A stretch of DNA of 42,611 nucleotides from Parcubacteria group bacterium Greene0416_36 (GTDB lineage Bacteria; Patescibacteriota; Patescibacteriia; VMEV01), in assembly GCA_007375725.1 (NCBI GenBank), contig VMEV01000009.1, positions 1 through 42,611 on the forward strand, given 5' to 3'. The notes beneath the pieces are model-generated. The model saw only the letters and a program-made list of their open reading frames with translations, ran no database searches and was not told where the DNA came from. Position numbers and translations under genes: made by a program. Below, in pieces: positions 7,448-27,367 of the stretch; position 1 is the first letter of the stretch, and each line of letters opens with the position of its first letter.

Positions 7448-8659
7448 ATGAAGCAAAAAAAGGAGGGGGGGGCTTACAATCCGTTTTTCTATATTTATTT
7501 TTCGTGGAGAATGTTTGTAGGTTTTTTGATTTTTTTTCTATTTTTTAATTTTATATTAGACACGGTGATTGCTCGTTTTACCACTGGTCTTCTAGGCGAG
7601 TTGCTCTTCAATAAATTAGGTCGGGATGTATTAGTTTTGACGGGAGCTTCTTTTCTTTTGGCGTTTTTTTCGACTTTTCTTTACGGCAGTATTGTCACTC
7701 GGCTTCTCAATGTTTTTTCGGAAGTGCTCATGAAATTATGTTCCGATATGCTGGACGGAAAATATGATTTTGTCTGCGCGGATAAAAGCTGTTACGAGCT
7801 CCTGAAAAAGGCGGTAAAATACGAGACATTCAAGCAATTGGGTTTGAAGATCAGCTCTATCCACAATGGATTTAAAGAGGAGCTCGCTCATTTGGAACGT
7901 GAAATGAAAAAGAAAAAAAAGATTTTCGAAGATCAGTCCGAGTATGTGGCGATTATGTCCCATAAGCTCCGTACTCCCATTTCTGCGGTGCGTTGGAATT
8001 TGGAGATGCTCTTGGGCGGTGAATTCGGCGCACTCAAACCCAAACAAAAGGAGATTTTGGAAGATGCGGCCAGCGCCAATGGGAAGACTATTACCTTGGT
8101 GGACGAATTGCTCAAAATTTCGAGATTGGAAAGTGGCAAAGAATCATTAAAAGTAGAATCTTTTTCATTAAAAGAGGCCATTGATGCGGATATTGAGTCT
8201 TTCATGTTTAAGATTAAGGCTCATAATGTGGAAATTGTTCGCCGTTATCCGCACTCAGATATTAAAATCCAGACCGACCGGAAGTTTTTTGATGAAATTA
8301 TGCGCAATTTTATCGATAATGCCGTCAAATATAGCGCGGTGTCCGGCAGGCGCGGAGCTGTGGAGATTGGGTATCGGCAGGAGTCTGCCAATAAAATAGG
8401 GGTGTGGGTTCGGGATAATGGGGTGGGTATTCCAGAGAAAGAGCGCAAGCATCTTTTTCAGAAGTTTTTCAGAGCCTCTAATGTTTTGAGTTTAGATACT
8501 GAGGGGTCAGGATTGGGGTTATTTATTTGCCGAAAGCTGGCGCGGCTTATTCGCGCTCGGATTGATTTTACTTCCAAAGCAGGCGAGGGAAGCGTTTTTA
8601 GTCTTTATCTCCCGATATCGTCAAACATAAGGGGAAATACGGAAGGGTATGAAGAATAA
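7448..8659 (+). CDS. membrane sensor histidine kinase (HK1)
   Basis: TM segments, H-box IMSHKLRTPISAVRWNLE, N-box NFIDNAVKYS, DNGVGIP, GSGLGLF. Confidence 0.9.
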   Translation: MKQKKEGGAYNPFFYIYFSWRMFVGFLIFFLFFNFILDTVIARFTTGLLGELLFNKLGRDVLVLTGASFLLAFFSTFLYGSIVTRLLNVFSEVLMKLCSDMLDGKYDFVCADKSCYELLKKAVKYETFKQLGLKISSIHNGFKEELAHLEREMKKKKKIFEDQSEYVAIMSHKLRTPISAVRWNLEMLLGGEFGALKPKQKEILEDAASANGKTITLVDELLKISRLESGKESLKVESFSLKEAIDADIESFMFKIKAHNVEIVRRYPHSDIKIQTDRKFFDEIMRNFIDNAVKYSAVSGRRGAVEIGYRQESANKIGVWVRDNGVGIPEKERKHLFQKFFRASNVLSLDTEGSGLGLFICRKLARLIRARIDFTSKAGEGSVFSLYLPISSNIRGNTEGYEE

Positions 8660-9116
8660 AGGGTTCACCTTGATTGAGCTGATTATCACCGCAGCCTTGG
8701 TTTTGCTTATGACGGCTGTGGCGCTTCCGCCGCTCGGAAAATATATGGTGGGGAATTCCACGGCCGAATCAGCATCGGAAATGAGCACCTTTATTCAAAC
8801 CGCTAGGAATCGGGCCATTCATGGGAACTTCAATGATTCCTACGGTGTTCGTCTCTTGTCGGACCGGTTTATTTTGTTCAAAGGCGCCGTATTCAGTGCA
8901 GGTGAGTCCGATAATCGGACGACTTTGCTCCCTCCGGGACTGGAAATCGCGGATGTGACTCTTGCCGGCGGCGGAACTGATATTATTTTCACTGATATCC
9001 TCGGCCGCACGAGCCAGCCTGGTTCCGCTAAAATCCGCGTGATCGGTTCTCCGGACCATTGGCTGGTGACGGTGAGTGCGGAGGGGGTGGTGGAGACAGG
9101 GTGGGTGGATTTATAA
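8649..9116 (+). CDS. prepilin-type N-methylation protein, minor pseudopilin (GspH-like)
   Basis: MKNKGFTLIELIITAALVLLMTAVALPPL type III signal; start overlaps the HK1 end. Confidence 0.85.
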   Translation: MKNKGFTLIELIITAALVLLMTAVALPPLGKYMVGNSTAESASEMSTFIQTARNRAIHGNFNDSYGVRLLSDRFILFKGAVFSAGESDNRTTLLPPGLEIADVTLAGGGTDIIFTDILGRTSQPGSAKIRVIGSPDHWLVTVSAEGVVETGWVDL

Positions 9117-9117
9117 G

Positions 9118-9204
9118 CAACAAATCCCTCCCCAACCCTCCCTTTGACAAGGGAGGGGGTAGCAGCCTCCCCCTTGTCAAAGGGGGACTGAGGGGGATTT
9201 GTTG
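9118..9204 (+). repeat. double-hairpin repeat DHR copy 4 (forward)
   Basis: Same consensus, 1 nt after the pilin stop codon. Confidence 0.95.
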
Positions 9205-9230
9205 CTCTCATTCTACATTATTCATTAGAT

Positions 9231-12200
9231 ATGTTTTCTTCCTTTCTAAAAAATCAACTCGGCCAATACTTTATCGATGCTATTATCGGCATTGCGTTTT
9301 TCGCGTCCATCGTGGGGTCGGTGTTTTTGATCGTGCTCAATGTTTATAAATCGACGAATTCGAATGCGGATTATTTTGAGGCTTTGTCGCTCGCGAGAGA
9401 GGGAATTGAGGCCACGCGCAGTATCCGAGATGAATCTGTGCTTAATTTGACGAATGGAAATCATGGATTGGCGCAGTCAGGAGGGAAATGGGTTTTTTCG
9501 GGGACATCGGAGACGATTGAGAAATTCACACGCATGATTGAAATTTCAGATGTCAGTCGGGATTCTGGTGGCAATTATGTTTCTTCCGGGGGAACCGTGG
9601 ATTCTCAATCGAAGAAAGTGATTTCTCGTGTTTCTTGGATTGCTGATTTGGGTACCCGACAGGTATTTTTAGAAGATTTTATTGTGGCTGATATGCGTCC
9701 TTTTAGCTGGAGGGAATCTACGGATACCGATTTTAACGATGGAACGTTTACGAATTTACAACTGGCGGGAGCAGGAGAAGCCGCTCAGATTCAGTTGAAT
9801 TTTGTGGCCGGAGGTGAAGCCAATAAATGGGTACCTGGAGGGGGACAGATATTTACCGATACAACCGATCTGAATTTTAATCAGGGAACTTTCAGTAATA
9901 CTCAAGTGATTGATACGGGTGCCTTAGCTCGCGTGTCCTTGGCTCAAGAAATTAAATGGGATTCTTTTGATTTTCCTTTTGGCACAGCCAACATGAATTA
10001 TGCTTCTACGAATTGGGCGGTTGGAGATAAGGGAGTGATTTTTAAATGGAGCGGTTCCCAATGGTTTCAGGTGACTTCTCCAACGACTAAAATTTTAACC
10101 AGTGTCAGCGAAGTAAGCGCTACTGAAGCTTATGCTGTCGGTAATGATGGCAGGGTTCTGCGATATAGCGGGGCGAGTTGGTCGGCATTATCTTCTCCTA
10201 CCAACTTTGATTTGAAATCCGTGTCTATGATTTCTTCGACCGACGGTTTTGCGGTGGGGAATAAAGGAAAGGTTATTCGTTGGAATGGGACCAGCTGGGG
10301 CTTGATGAGTTCACCCACCAGCAAGGATTTGCTCAGTGTGTTTATGATTTCTTCCAGCGATGGATGGGCGGTTGGAGACAATGGAACCATCATTCGTTGG
10401 GATGGTACAAGCTGGTCTGCAGTTTCTTCTCCTGTGAGTACTTTTTTAAATAGTGTATGGATGGTTTCTGCTACTGATGGGTGGATTGTGGGAAGTCTTG
10501 GGACTATTTTGAGGTGGAATGGCACGGCTTGGAGTACGGTTACGTCTCCGGTGAATAAGCGTCTCAATGGAATTTCTATGATTTCTTCGACCGATGGTTT
10601 TGCTGTCGGGGCTCAGGGGACGATTATTCGTTGGAATGGAACCGCGTGGTCCAGTTTTTCCTCGCCTGTTAATGAAACATTGAAAAGTGTTTTTTTGAGT
10701 TCCTCTATTTTTGGTTGGATTGTGGGGCAAAGGGGAGTGGTTTTGCGTTGGGATGGAACCGTGTGGAATGTTCACGAACAAGCTTCCATTGATAATTTTA
10801 ATAGTATTGATTTATTAACTTCTACTTTTGGCATATTAGCGGGAAATAAAGGAGCTATTTTGCATTGGGATGGATCCACGTGGACACCTTTTTTGTCACC
10901 TACCTCCAAAAATTTGAAAGGAGTTTCTGTGATTTCAGCAACGGATGCTTTTGCTGTGGGGGATACTGGAACGATTCTTCGTTGGAATGGGACCGCTTGG
11001 GCGACAGTCACTTCTCCTGTTTCGGTTAATTTAAATAGTATTTCCATGCTTTCCGGTACAAACGGATTTATAGTCGGCGACAGCGGAACGATTATCCGCT
11101 GGAATGGAACGAGCTGGTCTAGTTTGGCGTCTCCGACGACTGAAAATCTCAATTTTGTTTTTATGCTGTCAGCTTCTGACGGATGGGCCGTGGGGGCCAA
11201 TGGCAGCATTATTCGCTGGAACGGGACCAGCTGGTCTTCCGTGAGTTCACCGGTGACCGCTATCCTTAACAGTCTCTATTTTGTTAGTGCCTCTGATGGC
11301 TGGGCTGTGGGGAATACAGGTACGATTATTCGTTGGAATGGAACAGTGTGGTCCATTGTGTCTTCTCCAATTACCAAAAATCTCAATGGAGTAGGGTTAA
11401 CTTCTTCCACCTCAGGCTATATTGTGGCTGATGGCGGCCGCATTTTGAAATGGAATGGTACAAGCTGGACTACCTTTGTATCTCCGAGCGCTAAGAGTTT
11501 GTTTGCTATCGGTCTTGTGACCGCTTCTAATGGCTGGGCTGTAGGACAATCGGGTACCATTATCCAGTTGTCCAATTTTTTCTTTACTACGGGGACATTT
11601 CTTTCAAGGATTTTTGATGGGGGCTCAGTGAGTGTTTGGAATACATTAAATTGGGTTGAAAATAATTTTGCCGTGACTGATTTGACCATTGCCACGAGAA
11701 CGGGAAATGTTGCGATTCCTGATCTGTCATGGTCCTCTTTTTCAGCCGAAGTGACGAATCCGGGATCTTCTAATATTACTTCCCCTAATGGACGTTATTT
11801 TCAGTATCGTGCAACGTTTACGACTTCTGATGTGAGAGTTTCTGCGGAATTAGACGAAATTAATATTAATTTTAATGCCCCTACGACCACCAATCATTTG
11901 AACGGTTTGAGCATGGTCAGCGCGGTGGATGGATGGTTTGTTGGAAATTCGGGTACCATTGGACGTTGGAACAATGTGGTGTGGCAATTGGTCACTTCGC
12001 CAACTGTGGCGAATTTGAATGAGGTGGATATGGTTTCCTCTTCTGATGGTTGGGCAGTAGGCGCTCTCGGGACTATTATTCGGTGGAATGGAAGTGCCTG
12101 GAATACCGTGGCTTCCCCCACGAGCAACGCGCTTAATGATGTGGATATGGTTTCTTCATCCGATGGTTGGGCCGTCGGAGCCGGTGGAACTATTGTGCGT

Positions 12201-12998
12201 TGGAATGGGGCGAGTTGGAGTGTCGTCAGTTCACCCGTGAGTACTACACTGGAAAATGTCCATATGATTACGGCTTCGGACGGCTGGATTGTGGGCGCTA
12301 GCGGTACTATTTTGAAATGGAATGGATCTACGTGGTCTGTGGCTACCTCTCCCACCGTGGAAAATCTTTTTGGCCTTCATTTTGTCTCTTCAACAGATGG
12401 TTGGGCAGTGGGCGCTTCGGGAAAAGTTTTGAGATATACAGGTGCTTCCTGGACGGAATTTGTGGATGCCGGTTCGGCGATTTTGCGGGATGTGTTCATG
12501 GTCAACAGTTCTGATGCGTGGATTGTGGGAGATGCAGGAACATTGCTGGATTGGAATAATGTTTTTTGGCTGATTTCGGATTCTCCAACCGGTGAAAATA
12601 TCAATGCTGTTGAGATTTCTCCCTCAACAACTCAAGGTTGGGCTGTCGGGGGAACTGGGACTATTTTGCAGTTTACTAATACTGCTCAGGTTCCCAGTTT
12701 TGTCGCCCTCGGCACTTATTTATCGTCTATTTTGAATTCTGATTTTTTATCTACTTTATGGATCGGTACATTTTGGGGAGAACTTTTAGGTGCTAATACC
12801 AATATCAGCGTTTCTGTCCGAACGGGTGATGAACCCGTGCCCGATATTACATGGACTCCCTTTTCTAGTGAATTTTTAAATCCGGGTGGAAATATTTCAT
12901 CACAGGTGGGGCAATATTTACAATATCGTTTAAAATTGACATCGGTGGATGGTATTAATACTCCCACTTTGCAAGATATTACGGTGACATACCAATAG
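9231..12998 (+). CDS. giant pilin-like protein: hydrophobic pseudopilin N-terminus, 14 propeller repeats, beta-rich domain, 7 propeller repeats, beta-rich domain
   Basis: N-term FIDAIIGIAFFASIVGSVFLIVLNVY + AREGIEATRSIRD; repeats of type SSSDGWAVGDNGTIIRWDGTSWSAVSSPVSTFLNSVWMV. Confidence 0.85.
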   Translation: MFSSFLKNQLGQYFIDAIIGIAFFASIVGSVFLIVLNVYKSTNSNADYFEALSLAREGIEATRSIRDESVLNLTNGNHGLAQSGGKWVFSGTSETIEKFTRMIEISDVSRDSGGNYVSSGGTVDSQSKKVISRVSWIADLGTRQVFLEDFIVADMRPFSWRESTDTDFNDGTFTNLQLAGAGEAAQIQLNFVAGGEANKWVPGGGQIFTDTTDLNFNQGTFSNTQVIDTGALARVSLAQEIKWDSFDFPFGTANMNYASTNWAVGDKGVIFKWSGSQWFQVTSPTTKILTSVSEVSATEAYAVGNDGRVLRYSGASWSALSSPTNFDLKSVSMISSTDGFAVGNKGKVIRWNGTSWGLMSSPTSKDLLSVFMISSSDGWAVGDNGTIIRWDGTSWSAVSSPVSTFLNSVWMVSATDGWIVGSLGTILRWNGTAWSTVTSPVNKRLNGISMISSTDGFAVGAQGTIIRWNGTAWSSFSSPVNETLKSVFLSSSIFGWIVGQRGVVLRWDGTVWNVHEQASIDNFNSIDLLTSTFGILAGNKGAILHWDGSTWTPFLSPTSKNLKGVSVISATDAFAVGDTGTILRWNGTAWATVTSPVSVNLNSISMLSGTNGFIVGDSGTIIRWNGTSWSSLASPTTENLNFVFMLSASDGWAVGANGSIIRWNGTSWSSVSSPVTAILNSLYFVSASDGWAVGNTGTIIRWNGTVWSIVSSPITKNLNGVGLTSSTSGYIVADGGRILKWNGTSWTTFVSPSAKSLFAIGLVTASNGWAVGQSGTIIQLSNFFFTTGTFLSRIFDGGSVSVWNTLNWVENNFAVTDLTIATRTGNVAIPDLSWSSFSAEVTNPGSSNITSPNGRYFQYRATFTTSDVRVSAELDEININFNAPTTTNHLNGLSMVSAVDGWFVGNSGTIGRWNNVVWQLVTSPTVANLNEVDMVSSSDGWAVGALGTIIRWNGSAWNTVASPTSNALNDVDMVSSSDGWAVGAGGTIVRWNGASWSVVSSPVSTTLENVHMITASDGWIVGASGTILKWNGSTWSVATSPTVENLFGLHFVSSTDGWAVGASGKVLRYTGASWTEFVDAGSAILRDVFMVNSSDAWIVGDAGTLLDWNNVFWLISDSPTGENINAVEISPSTTQGWAVGGTGTILQFTNTAQVPSFVALGTYLSSILNSDFLSTLWIGTFWGELLGANTNISVSVRTGDEPVPDITWTPFSSEFLNPGGNISSQVGQYLQYRLKLTSVDGINTPTLQDITVTYQ
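9999..11570 (+). repeat. 14 tandem protein repeats, exact 39-aa / 117-nt spacing (last partial)
   Basis: Unit 14 starts exactly 13x117 nt after unit 1; D-G-W-x-VG...W-NGT-W...SP motif. Confidence 0.9.
11919..12690 (+). repeat. 7 further tandem 39-aa repeats (last partial, with 1-aa insertion)
   Basis: Unit 7 starts exactly 6x117 nt after unit 1 of this block. Confidence 0.9.
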
Positions 12999-13092
12999 CT
13001 AGGCTATTAGGCGTTAGGCCATTAGCTTATTAGGAAACAGTAAACAATTTTTTGTTGCTACCTAAAAAGCTAATGCCTAATAGCCTAATGCC
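12999..13092. repeat. word-repeat hairpin (TTAGGC/ATTAGC words) before the next pilin gene
   Basis: GGCTATTAGGCGTTAGGCCATTAGCTTATTAGG ... CCTAAAAAGCTAATGCCTAATAGCCTAATGCC. Confidence 0.8.
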
Positions 13093-13102
13093 TTTTTTCC
13101 AT

Positions 13103-13618
13103 ATGTTTTCTCAAAAAGGATCATCCCTCGTCGAAGTCATCTTCTACATCACCGTCCTAGCTCTGTTCGTGATTTCCATGACGATGTTTAATATTGATCT
13201 GCTCTCAGGATCAGCCAAGCTTCGCACGATTCAGTCCGTGCAGGATAATTTGCGTTTTCCGATTCATAAAATGTCCACCGATATTCGGCGGTCGACGGGG
13301 GTCAATATTGGGTCATCGGTATTCGATACTCACCCCGGAGTTTTATCACTGCAGATGGCCTCAGCCGGAGAAGATCCGACGGTCTACAGTATCTCGAGCG
13401 GACGGCTCCGTGTCCAGCGCGGTGCCGCGTCTCCCGAATTCGTCACGAGTTCGAACGTGATCGTGACTAATCTTGTTTTCAAGAATCTCAGTGTCTCAGG
13501 CAAAACCCGTAATATTCAGGTTTTATTGACTGTCTCTCACGATAATCCCGAAAATATAAATGAGTATTCCTGGACCGAGAGTTTTCAGATCACGGGGCAA
13601 AGTAGGAAGTTTCCCTAA
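13103..13618 (+). CDS. pseudopilin (PulJ/GspJ-like)
   Basis: MFSQKGSSLVEVIFYITVLALFVISMTMF; the longer ORF start lies in the hairpin repeat. Confidence 0.75.
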   Translation: MFSQKGSSLVEVIFYITVLALFVISMTMFNIDLLSGSAKLRTIQSVQDNLRFPIHKMSTDIRRSTGVNIGSSVFDTHPGVLSLQMASAGEDPTVYSISSGRLRVQRGAASPEFVTSSNVIVTNLVFKNLSVSGKTRNIQVLLTVSHDNPENINEYSWTESFQITGQSRKFP

Positions 13619-13620
13619 AG

Positions 13621-13697
13621 AATGAAGAATTAAAAATTAAGAATTAAGAATAGGGTGTGTTTGATGTTCATTCTTAATTCTTCATTCTTAATTTTTA
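13621..13697. repeat. word-repeat hairpin (GAATTAA words)
   Basis: GAATGAAGAATTAAAAATTAAGAATTAAGAAT ... ATTCTTAATTCTTCATTCTTAATTTTTAATT. Confidence 0.8.
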
Positions 13698-13700
13698 ATT

Positions 13701-14093
13701 ATGAATGAGAAAGGAATGTCCATCATGCTTTCCGTACTTGTCATCATGAGCGTCTCGCTCCTGATTGCTTTGTCGATCGGGATTTTGGGGTCCGCGGAGC
13801 TGGAGGTGGCGAGTTCTTCGGTGCTTTCGGAGAACGCTTTCCATATCGCCGACCTCTGCGCCGAAGAAGCCGCCACTAAACTCCGCGCCAATAGCTCCTA
13901 TACGGGCGAATCAATCACCTTCTCCGAAGGGTCGTGTACAATTACGGTCACCGGCGCCGGCACTAAGACGATTGACTCCGTCGGCGTCCTCGGCGACTTC
14001 ACCCGAAAAGTCCGTGTCATCGGCACCATCGCCGCCAACTCGCAGGGAAACGCGAAGAAGTTTAGTATTACGAGCTGGGAGGAAATACCCTAG
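13701..14093 (+). CDS. PilX-like pilus-associated minor protein
   Basis: MNEKGMSIMLSVLVIMSVSLLIALSIG hydrophobic start; position in pilin cluster. Confidence 0.65.
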   Translation: MNEKGMSIMLSVLVIMSVSLLIALSIGILGSAELEVASSSVLSENAFHIADLCAEEAATKLRANSSYTGESITFSEGSCTITVTGAGTKTIDSVGVLGDFTRKVRVIGTIAANSQGNAKKFSITSWEEIP

Positions 14094-15963: not shown

Positions 15964-17958
15964 ATGTCTATTCGCAATCAAATCATTTCCATTCTAAAAA
16001 ATATTTTAGGCGAACAGCTTGATATTTCTTTGGAACACCCCGCTGACAATAAAAACGGCGATTATTCGACGAATATTTGTCTGCGTTTGGCTAAGGAAGT
16101 GAAGAAGTCTCCGAGAGACTTTGGGTTGGATTTGATCGAGAAAATCAAGGCTCATCCAGAGGCAAAATTATTTTCAAAAATCGAACTGGCCGGGCCCGGG
16201 TTCGTGAATTTTTATTTGTCTCCCGAATTTTTGGCGGGGGAATTGGGCGCGATTCTCGAGAAGAAAGAAGCTTATGGCGAATTGACCTTGGGCCAGGGCA
16301 AGCGCGTAATCGTCGAGCATACCTCGGTGAATCCCAATAAAGCCATGCATGTGGGGCATCTGCGAAACAGCATTCTCGGCGACAGCATCGCGCGGATTCT
16401 CCGAAAATGCGGGTACTCCGTGCAGGTGGAGAATTATATTGATGATACGGGGGTCCAGCTGGCGGATATTGTGACAGCTTTTGAGGTTTTGAAATCCAAG
16501 GAAGACCCGCATCAAAAATTCGATCATATTTGCTGGGATTTATACACGGAAATTCAAAAGCAATTGGCGGCCAATCCGGAATTGGAAATCAAAAAGAAAG
16601 AAATTCAGACGCAATTGGAAGAAGGCTCGGGAGAATTTGCGGAGAAAGGGAAAGAATTGGTGCGAAAAGTTCTCAATGAACAAATGAATACCATGGCCCT
16701 GTTTAATATCACTTATGATCTTTTACTCGCTGAAAGTTCGATTTTGTCGAGTGGTTTATGGAAGGAAGTGTTTGAAGAATTGAAGGAAAAAAATATTGCT
16801 GTATTCGAAAAAGAAGGCGCGCATGCGGGGTGCTGGGTGGTCCGGGATTTAGATTTGCCCAATGCGGAGAATATGAAAAATTCGGACAAGGTTTTGGTCA
16901 CCGGCCACGGAAATGTGGTGTACACGGCCAAAGATATCGCGCATCATTTGTGGAAATTCGGTTTGGTTGGCGGCGATTTTGGGTATGAATTATTTGAGGT
17001 TCAGCTCAAAAACTATGATTCTTCTTTGAAAGATTTGAATCCATCGTTATATTCAGCGATTTTTAATCAGCATTACTCAAATCCTTATTTTACTGTGTCT
17101 AAAGAAGAGGGGGAAACGGGCGTGGCGTTTGGAAAAGTGGATCTATGCTATACGGTTGTCGATATCCGGCAGGCCTATTCTTTCGATGTGATCAAGGCCG
17201 TATTTAAGAAATTGGGATTTGAAAAACAAGCCGACGCACTCAATCATGTGGCTTATGGTTTTGTCTCTTTGTCCCGAAATACTGCCAAAGAATTAGGTGT
17301 GGATGTGTCGGACAATGCCGCATCGTATCCGATGAGCGGACGGAAAGGCATTGGCGTGAAAGTGGATGATTTATGGAAAATTATATCCGCGAAGGTGAAA
17401 GGGAAAATACTGGAAGGCGGTAAGGGCGTATTGCAATACGCCCTTACATCAGCGGAGGTGGAAAAAGTCGTTTGGTTTATCTCCGGCGGCGCACTCAAAG
17501 CCTATATGCTCAAATTCAGTCCTCATCAGGAATTGGTCTTTGATTTTGACGAGGCCCTCAAAATGACCGGCGATTCTGGGCCATATTTGCAGTATACCCA
17601 CGCGAGGATTTGCGGGATTTTGAGGAAGGGCGGGCCGCTTTTTGTAGGGACGTACGTACAATTCGCAAGACACCTAGAGGGGAAATTATCCAAACCCACC
17701 GAACTCGACCTCCTCCGAACCCTCTATCTCTTCCCTGAAATGGTCGAACTTGCTGCGCGTGAGGTGTCTCCCCATTTTATCTATTCCTATTTGATTACCC
17801 TCTCTCAGAAATTCAATTCATTTTACGCCAGCTGCCGTGTATTGGGGGCTGAGAACCCGGATATTGAAAAGTCTCGCCTTGCTCTGATCGCAGGGACGGC
17901 GCAGATTATCAAAAATGGGCTTAATTTGTTGGGGATTGAGGCACCGGAGAGGATGTAG
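15964..17958 (+). CDS. argS: arginine--tRNA ligase, apparently with a palindrome-derived insertion
   Basis: VEHTSVNPNKAMHVGHLRNSILGDSIARIL (HIGH-like), MSGRKGIGVK, C-terminal DALR-like region. Confidence 0.95.
   Translation: MSIRNQIISILKNILGEQLDISLEHPADNKNGDYSTNICLRLAKEVKKSPRDFGLDLIEKIKAHPEAKLFSKIELAGPGFVNFYLSPEFLAGELGAILEKKEAYGELTLGQGKRVIVEHTSVNPNKAMHVGHLRNSILGDSIARILRKCGYSVQVENYIDDTGVQLADIVTAFEVLKSKEDPHQKFDHICWDLYTEIQKQLAANPELEIKKKEIQTQLEEGSGEFAEKGKELVRKVLNEQMNTMALFNITYDLLLAESSILSSGLWKEVFEELKEKNIAVFEKEGAHAGCWVVRDLDLPNAENMKNSDKVLVTGHGNVVYTAKDIAHHLWKFGLVGGDFGYELFEVQLKNYDSSLKDLNPSLYSAIFNQHYSNPYFTVSKEEGETGVAFGKVDLCYTVVDIRQAYSFDVIKAVFKKLGFEKQADALNHVAYGFVSLSRNTAKELGVDVSDNAASYPMSGRKGIGVKVDDLWKIISAKVKGKILEGGKGVLQYALTSAEVEKVVWFISGGALKAYMLKFSPHQELVFDFDEALKMTGDSGPYLQYTHARICGILRKGGPLFVGTYVQFARHLEGKLSKPTELDLLRTLYLFPEMVELAAREVSPHFIYSYLITLSQKFNSFYASCRVLGAENPDIEKSRLALIAGTAQIIKNGLNLLGIEAPERM
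17420..17447. repeat. perfect 28-bp palindrome inside argS
   Basis: GTAAGGGCGTATTGCAATACGCCCTTAC equals its reverse complement. Confidence 0.9.
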
Positions 17959-18045
17959 CAACAAATCCCCCTCGGTCCCCCTTTGACAAGGGGGAGGCTG
18001 CTACCCCCTCCCTTGTCAAAGGGAGGGCTGGGGAGGGATTTGTTG
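17959..18045 (-). repeat. double-hairpin repeat DHR copy 5 (reverse)
   Basis: Begins at the nucleotide after the argS TAG. Confidence 0.95.
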
Positions 18046-18069
18046 CCGGCTGTTTCTACTTCCTAATTT

Positions 18070-25531: not shown

Positions 25532-25535
25532 TCAG

Positions 25536-25622
25536 CAACAAATCCCTCCTCAACCCTCCCTTTGACAAGGGAGGGGGTAGTAGCCTCCCCCTTGTCAAAG
25601 GGGGATTGAGGGGGATTTGTTG
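25536..25622 (+). repeat. double-hairpin repeat DHR copy 7 (forward), inside the ABC operon
   Basis: Same consensus. Confidence 0.95.
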
Positions 25623-25634
25623 CTATCATTTAAT

Positions 25635-27263: not shown

Positions 27264-27350
27264 CAACAAATCCCTCCCCAACCCTCCCTTTGACAAGGGA
27301 GGGAGCAACAGCCTCCCCCTTGTCAAAGGGGGATTGAGGGGGATTTGTTG
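27264..27350 (+). repeat. double-hairpin repeat DHR copy 8 (forward)
   Basis: Begins at the nucleotide after the gldG-like TAA. Confidence 0.95.
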
Positions 27351-27367
27351 CTTAATTTATAAAATCT

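Follow-up and report, generated by a model that had tools for sequence, protein, structure and literature searches.

A Patescibacteria PilV/GspI-type minor pilin with three predicted YCF48-type seven-bladed propellers, a probable binding head of the pilus tip

Among the systems described so far, the modular type IV pilins stand closest to the protein analysed here. These proteins, such as PilB and PilC of Streptococcus sanguinis, carry large binding modules behind a pilin module and are expected at the pilus tip; the modules described include vWA, lectin and others, Patescibacteria examples are already among the proteins surveyed, and a multi-domain protein of 860 residues is named as the most extreme case (PMC8179133, PMC9934059). 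The second close relative is PilX2 of TM7x (Nanosynbacter lyticus, Saccharibacteria), a minor pilin with a single seven-bladed propeller of the RCC1 type and no predicted PilD signal, which is needed for normal host binding and whose deletion lowers that binding (PMC12206443). The PilY1/PilC tip adhesins likewise display a propeller at the pilus tip together with minor pilins, but they are not pilins themselves and their C-terminal propeller belongs to a different family (IPR008707). YCF48, in turn, is a single propeller that serves photosystem II assembly.

In the window, i.e., the whole stretch of 42,611 nucleotides that was analysed, we found a gene in which a pilin-type start is joined to propellers of the YCF48 type:

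9231-12998, plus strand: fusion gene for a PilV/GspI-type minor pilin with three YCF48-type propellers (1255 aa, no internal stop)

The arrangement corresponds to that of the modular pilins, and the YCF48-type propellers provide an extra C-terminal domain that is not specific to pilus biology. The differences lie in the propellers themselves, which take the place of the modules listed above, and in size, as the protein is longer than the 860-residue example named there and its relatives exceed 2000 residues. Like TM7x PilX2, it is read as a Patescibacteria minor pilin with a seven-bladed propeller fold, but it has a PilV/GspI-type carrier, three propellers instead of one and another propeller family; no RCC1 match was found by Pfam. 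The PilC-type propeller family (IPR008707) was also absent from the Pfam matches, and, in contrast to PilY1/PilC, the N-terminus is of the pilin type. The initial annotation had set the design of a pilin helix with tandem propellers apart from known tip adhesins, which overstated its novelty: the fusion is not a new kind of protein because modular pilins (PMC8179133) and a propeller-bearing minor pilin of Patescibacteria (PMC12206443) have both been published. What is new is the PilV/I carrier subunit, the YCF48-type propeller family, the number of propellers and their stepwise variation by seven blades across the class. In a literature search that covered few subscription journals, no paper combined a pilin with YCF48-type propellers.

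The N-terminal part of the protein can be divided into three segments (here and below, a slash marks the predicted cleavage position):

9231-9263, plus strand: predicted prepilin leader, residues 1-11, MFSSFLKNQLG/QYFID (alignment with PilV-family members; -1 and +5 conserved in the family)
9264-9695, plus strand: pilin module, residues 12-155, long helix and beta sheet (AlphaFold2; family HMM matches)
9696-9962, plus strand: connector, residues 156-244, with the motif GGGxxFTDTTDxxFNxGTF (AlphaFold2 pLDDT about 30; motif kept in homologues)

In the AlphaFold2 model, a helix of 67 residues (2-68) is followed by a pilin-like beta sheet, with pLDDT mostly between 87 and 97. The position before the predicted cleavage site is G or A in all 53 relatives of the N-terminal family and +5 is E in 51 of them, while the genome encodes one prepilin peptidase; the proposed prepilin peptidase site is therefore borne out at the level of the family. 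Of the two exceptions at +5, one is a gene truncated at the contig start and the other has D, as does the fusion protein itself. Pfam N_methyl was matched by 24 of 28 family N-termini, and the NCBIfam models matched among these 28 were GspI (16), PilV (10), GspJ (3), GspH (1) and GspK (1), although the GspI/PilV matches among the relatives were weak (best 3e-5). At E 0.05, none of the Pfam or NCBIfam pilin models matched the N-terminus of the fusion protein alone; the pilin assignment is thus drawn from the relatives. In a PDB profile search, the pilin module matched pilin N-termini and unrelated proteins alike, and only weakly. In the C6 cluster of the same genome, a paralogue of 285 aa aligned with residues 11-112 at 38%. 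The earlier reading of a pilin-like start thus holds for the fold and the family signal, whereas the protein's own N-terminus, with no model match and Asp at +5, does not carry it. Placing the first ~155 residues in the PilV/GspI-type minor-pilin family appears largely right as a family-level assignment of a divergent copy, and at that level a class III prepilin signal and a pilin module, both as predicted, are found together as in modular type IV pilins.

The same observations bear on whether the helix could be a mere transmembrane anchor, in which case the protein would be an ordinary membrane protein that exposes its propellers at the cell surface and has no role in a pilus. The missing model match of the N-terminus would suit such an anchor, as would the fact that in other phyla the same blades mostly follow ordinary signal-peptide-like or lipoprotein-like starts. 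We nevertheless regard it as very improbable, given the family-wide class III signal features, the GspI/PilV matches of the relatives, the predicted pilin fold and the location of the relatives' fused genes inside type IV pilus operons. The minor-pilin assignment is further strengthened by synteny, for which the neighbouring features are given below:

7448-8659, plus strand: sensor histidine kinase (Pfam HisKA 8e-12, HATPase_c 5e-23)
8649-9116, plus strand: FimT/GspH-like minor pilin, H position, starting MKNKG/FTLIE (Pfam N_methyl 9e-6, over the cut-off, and GspH 0.004; NCBIfam GspH 3e-5)
9117-9206, no strand assigned: 90-bp palindromic repeat between the FimT-like gene and the fusion gene
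13103-13618, plus strand: PilW/GspJ-like minor pilin, J position, QKG/SSLVE (weak N_methyl 0.09; sequence; position, which is the same in relatives)
13701-14093, plus strand: PilX/GspK-like minor pilin, K position, EKG/MSIML, no Glu5 (hydrophobic N-terminus; weak PilV 0.011 and ComGG 0.046; position, which is the same in relatives)

The order FimT-[fusion]-PilW-PilX is the H-I-J-K order of minor pilins, and in relatives the fused gene occupies the same slot in the full operon PilB-PilC-FimT-[fusion]-PilW-PilX-PilM-PilA. The fusion gene hence lies in the position of the I subunit, between FimT and PilW and followed by K, both in its own cluster and in those of its relatives; the GspI/PilV sequence family expected of an I subunit is indicated through the relatives, the fusion copy alone being unmatched. 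This differs from TM7x PilX2, since the K position is taken by a separate gene at 13701-14093. K subunits are expected to have no Glu5 (PMC9934059), with which the PilX-like gene agrees. No ATPase or platform (motor) gene was found beside this pilin cluster; four PilB-type ATPases, a shorter fifth homologue and the prepilin peptidase are encoded elsewhere in the genome, which also contains two more minor-pilin clusters, their PilV genes measuring 285 and 169 aa. The histidine kinase gene, whose stop codon lies past the start of the FimT-like gene, is therefore probably co-transcribed with the pilin cluster.

Ordinary GspI/PilV proteins comprise only about 100-200 aa. The protein resembles them in its signal region, in the family-model matches and in gene position but differs by an added arm of 1100 residues, which is composed of the following parts:

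9963-10781, plus strand: propeller 1, blades 1-7, residues 245-517 (repeat scan, AlphaFold2, Foldseek; boundary at the confidence dip at 517-519)
10782-11600, plus strand: propeller 2, blades 8-14, residues 518-790 (repeat scan, AlphaFold2, Foldseek)
11583-11882, plus strand: beta-sandwich or jelly-roll-like domain 1, residues ~785-884 (AlphaFold2)
11883-12704, plus strand: propeller 3, blades 15-21, residues 885-1158 (repeat scan, AlphaFold2, Foldseek)
12705-12995, plus strand: beta-sandwich or jelly-roll-like domain 2, residues ~1159-1255 (AlphaFold2)

The claimed 14 + 7 propeller-type repeats were recovered from the open reading frame, a unit scan, autocorrelation and a shuffled control. 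Repeat-profile scores ranged from 31 to 112 for the 21 units vs. 17.6 for the best match in shuffled protein; the autocorrelation per residue at lag 39 was 2.6 for the 14-unit block and 1.6 for the seven-unit block, compared with about -0.3 for the best of the lags other than multiples of 39. The phasing of exactly 117 nt (39 aa) that had been reported for both blocks was true for all 13 intervals of the 14-unit block and for five in the seven-unit block, but the last interval of the latter is 40 aa. The step between the two blocks is 133 aa. A very recent tandem amplification of the blades was rejected because blade pairs are only ~35-70% identical in DNA and their third codon positions are well diverged.

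The HMM comparison that had been proposed assigned the repeats to the YCF48/PSII_BNR family (Pfam PF14870, 6.7e-28, 98 bits vs. a cut-off of 27), and YCF48 structures were the best PDB sequence matches. The blade sequence family and the seven-bladed fold are thus shared with the YCF48/PSII_BNR propellers (2xbg, 5ojr), while the function is not: the equivalog model of the photosystem II assembly factor, NF010237, scored 99.6 bits against a cut-off of 326, and the protein is accordingly no YCF48 orthologue. A second, separate YCF48-type match lies elsewhere in the same genome (L200, G000:C11:17442-17903) in an open frame of 367 aa.

In the AlphaFold2 model of residues 1-892, the 14 blades mostly exceeded a pLDDT of 90, with a dip at 517-519. 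The best Foldseek matches of the double propeller included the tandem seven-bladed pairs AIP1 and Utp21 (TM-score 0.63 for Utp21), and propeller 3, taken from a model of residues 775-1255, matched YCF48 5ojr with a TM-score of 0.72 and the designed seven-bladed propeller 7big with 0.82. Moreover, the identity between blades 1-7 and 8-14 was highest in register (permutation p 0.013). Based on the confidence dip, the tandem-propeller fold matches and the in-register likeness, the 14 + 7 units most plausibly represent three closed seven-bladed propellers, with no gap between propellers 1 and 2; the initial suggestion of three such propellers, which a predicted solenoid would have contradicted, agrees with these closed rings. 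Blades 7 and 8 follow each other with no linker, as they would if the 14 units formed one 14-bladed ring or an open solenoid. We consider both forms extremely improbable, as they are at odds with the dip, with the double-propeller matches, with the in-register likeness and with the predominance of seven-blade blocks among the relatives; furthermore, published propellers have four to twelve repeats (PMC6805158). The two beta-rich domains that had been noted are both present and 35% identical to each other. A PDB search gave no sequence relative for them and they were modelled at moderate confidence, for which reason no ligand class is claimed.

A search for homologues with the same pilin-propeller fusion, as had been suggested, was successful. 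A PilV-type N-terminus and YCF48-type blades in a single gene were detected in 17 of 240 genomes of the class, which we take to be ABY1, i.e., in 16 others besides the genome of the fusion gene, and two more fusions (L058 and L059) come from named genomes outside that count. Relatives with a taxon name belong to Ca. Uhrbacteria, Ca. Buchananbacteria and other Patescibacteria. Among 18 fusions, 35 of the 40 resolved blade blocks have 7, 14 or 21 blades, with G197, of irregular layout, left out of the count, and one to five propellers are present per protein. A strict multiple-of-seven rule was rejected, as only six blades passed the scan threshold in five terminal blocks: the tails of L163 and L164 would still accommodate a diverged seventh blade of the kind found in the protein at 9231-12998, while the last blocks of L059, L166 and L168 look like six blades or damaged sequence. 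The blocks are mostly separated by the same beta-sandwich domain, and the distance from blade start to blade start is most often 131-137 residues. The largest fusion is L164 (2-6604, G236), which has at least 2201 aa and five propellers in a gene cut by the contig start; L165 (5593-11211), the irregular fusion of G197, has 1873 aa.

The same blades are common in Chloroflexi, Deltaproteobacteria and other groups, often as proteins with 14 blades behind a signal-peptide-like start; none of the blade-bearing open reading frames from outside Patescibacteria in the 80 best contigs had a pilin start. Conversely, large members of the same pilin family that are devoid of YCF48 blades have Laminin_G_3 (up to four matched stretches), LVIVD repeats or H_lectin. 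The pilin is therefore the shared feature of the family and the binding-type module the variable one. Proteins of this kind, with laminin-G, LVIVD or H-lectin modules and 1194-1732 aa, were seen at L177 3907-9102, L173 4267-8808, L176 8894-13159 and L184 5447-9028.

Taking the family membership, the operon position and the exchange of modules together, we consider it likely that the protein is a modular type IV minor pilin of the PilV/GspI (I-subunit) type, the propeller arm of which would act as a tip binding head for a ligand of a partner or host. Family membership, operon position, the closed seven-bladed propellers, their varying number and the swap for lectin-type modules in relatives were obtained by computation; cleavage, incorporation into the pilus, tip position, adhesion and the type of ligand are inferred from PilV/GspI biology, the modular pilins (PMC8179133, PMC9934059) and TM7x PilX2 (PMC12206443). 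According to this model, the prepilin peptidase would cut after Gly11 and the N-terminal helix would pack with FimT, PilW and PilX into an H-I-J-K complex that starts or caps the pilus. The C-terminal arm (double propeller, beta-sandwich, propeller, beta-sandwich) would then be displayed at the tip, where it would most likely attach to a polypeptide or glycan ligand on the partner or host cell, and the pilus, once bound, would anchor the cell and draw it in. DNA uptake, surface sensing or contact with another surface protein would be equally conceivable tasks for a subunit whose arm has ~1100 residues. The overlap of the histidine kinase gene with the first pilin gene and the two-component genes that also adjoin the pilus operons of relatives would accord with a modular minor pilin that has a job other than adhesion to a cell, such as capturing DNA, sensing surfaces or contacts in connection with that kinase, or attaching to a non-living surface, and among the modular pilins ComZ is cited for a role in binding DNA (PMC8179133). 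Such a job seems unlikely overall, as surface ligands are indicated both by the exchange of the head with lectin-type domains and by the precedent of TM7x.

For most Patescibacteria the means of host recognition and attachment are obscure, and nearly all of these bacteria are uncultivated. A pilin family with a fixed operon slot and an exchangeable head offers a concrete and countable candidate for a recognition element, and it takes the single-propeller case of TM7x into a different class, with a different subunit and a different propeller family. It is also conceivable, though we propose it only tentatively, that in this class the PilV/I subunit serves as a common socket onto which large, exchangeable tip heads dock, with propeller number (one to five, in seven-blade steps) and swapped lectin modules forming the repertoire that sets the partner cell of each species. 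The candidate head can be tested as a purified protein with no need to cultivate the organism.

Genes for histidine kinases and/or response regulators directly adjoin pilin or pilus clusters at 7448-8659 in the window and, in relatives, at L011 6763-8790, L037 11726-14763, L038 5096-5473 and L042 5031-6171, which suggests a conserved sensory link to the pilus. The 90-bp palindromic repeat upstream of the fusion gene, which could affect the expression of this gene, belongs to a set of at least 40 copies in the 1.03-Mb genome, with identities of 93-100% (40 of 126 first-look candidates were scored); other copies are located at 17957-18046, 25535-25624 and 27264-27352. In the remaining gaps of the pilin cluster, at 13000-13090 and 13625-13705, imperfect inverted repeats of the TTAGGC/GCCTAA type and the AATTAAGAAT type were seen by eye.
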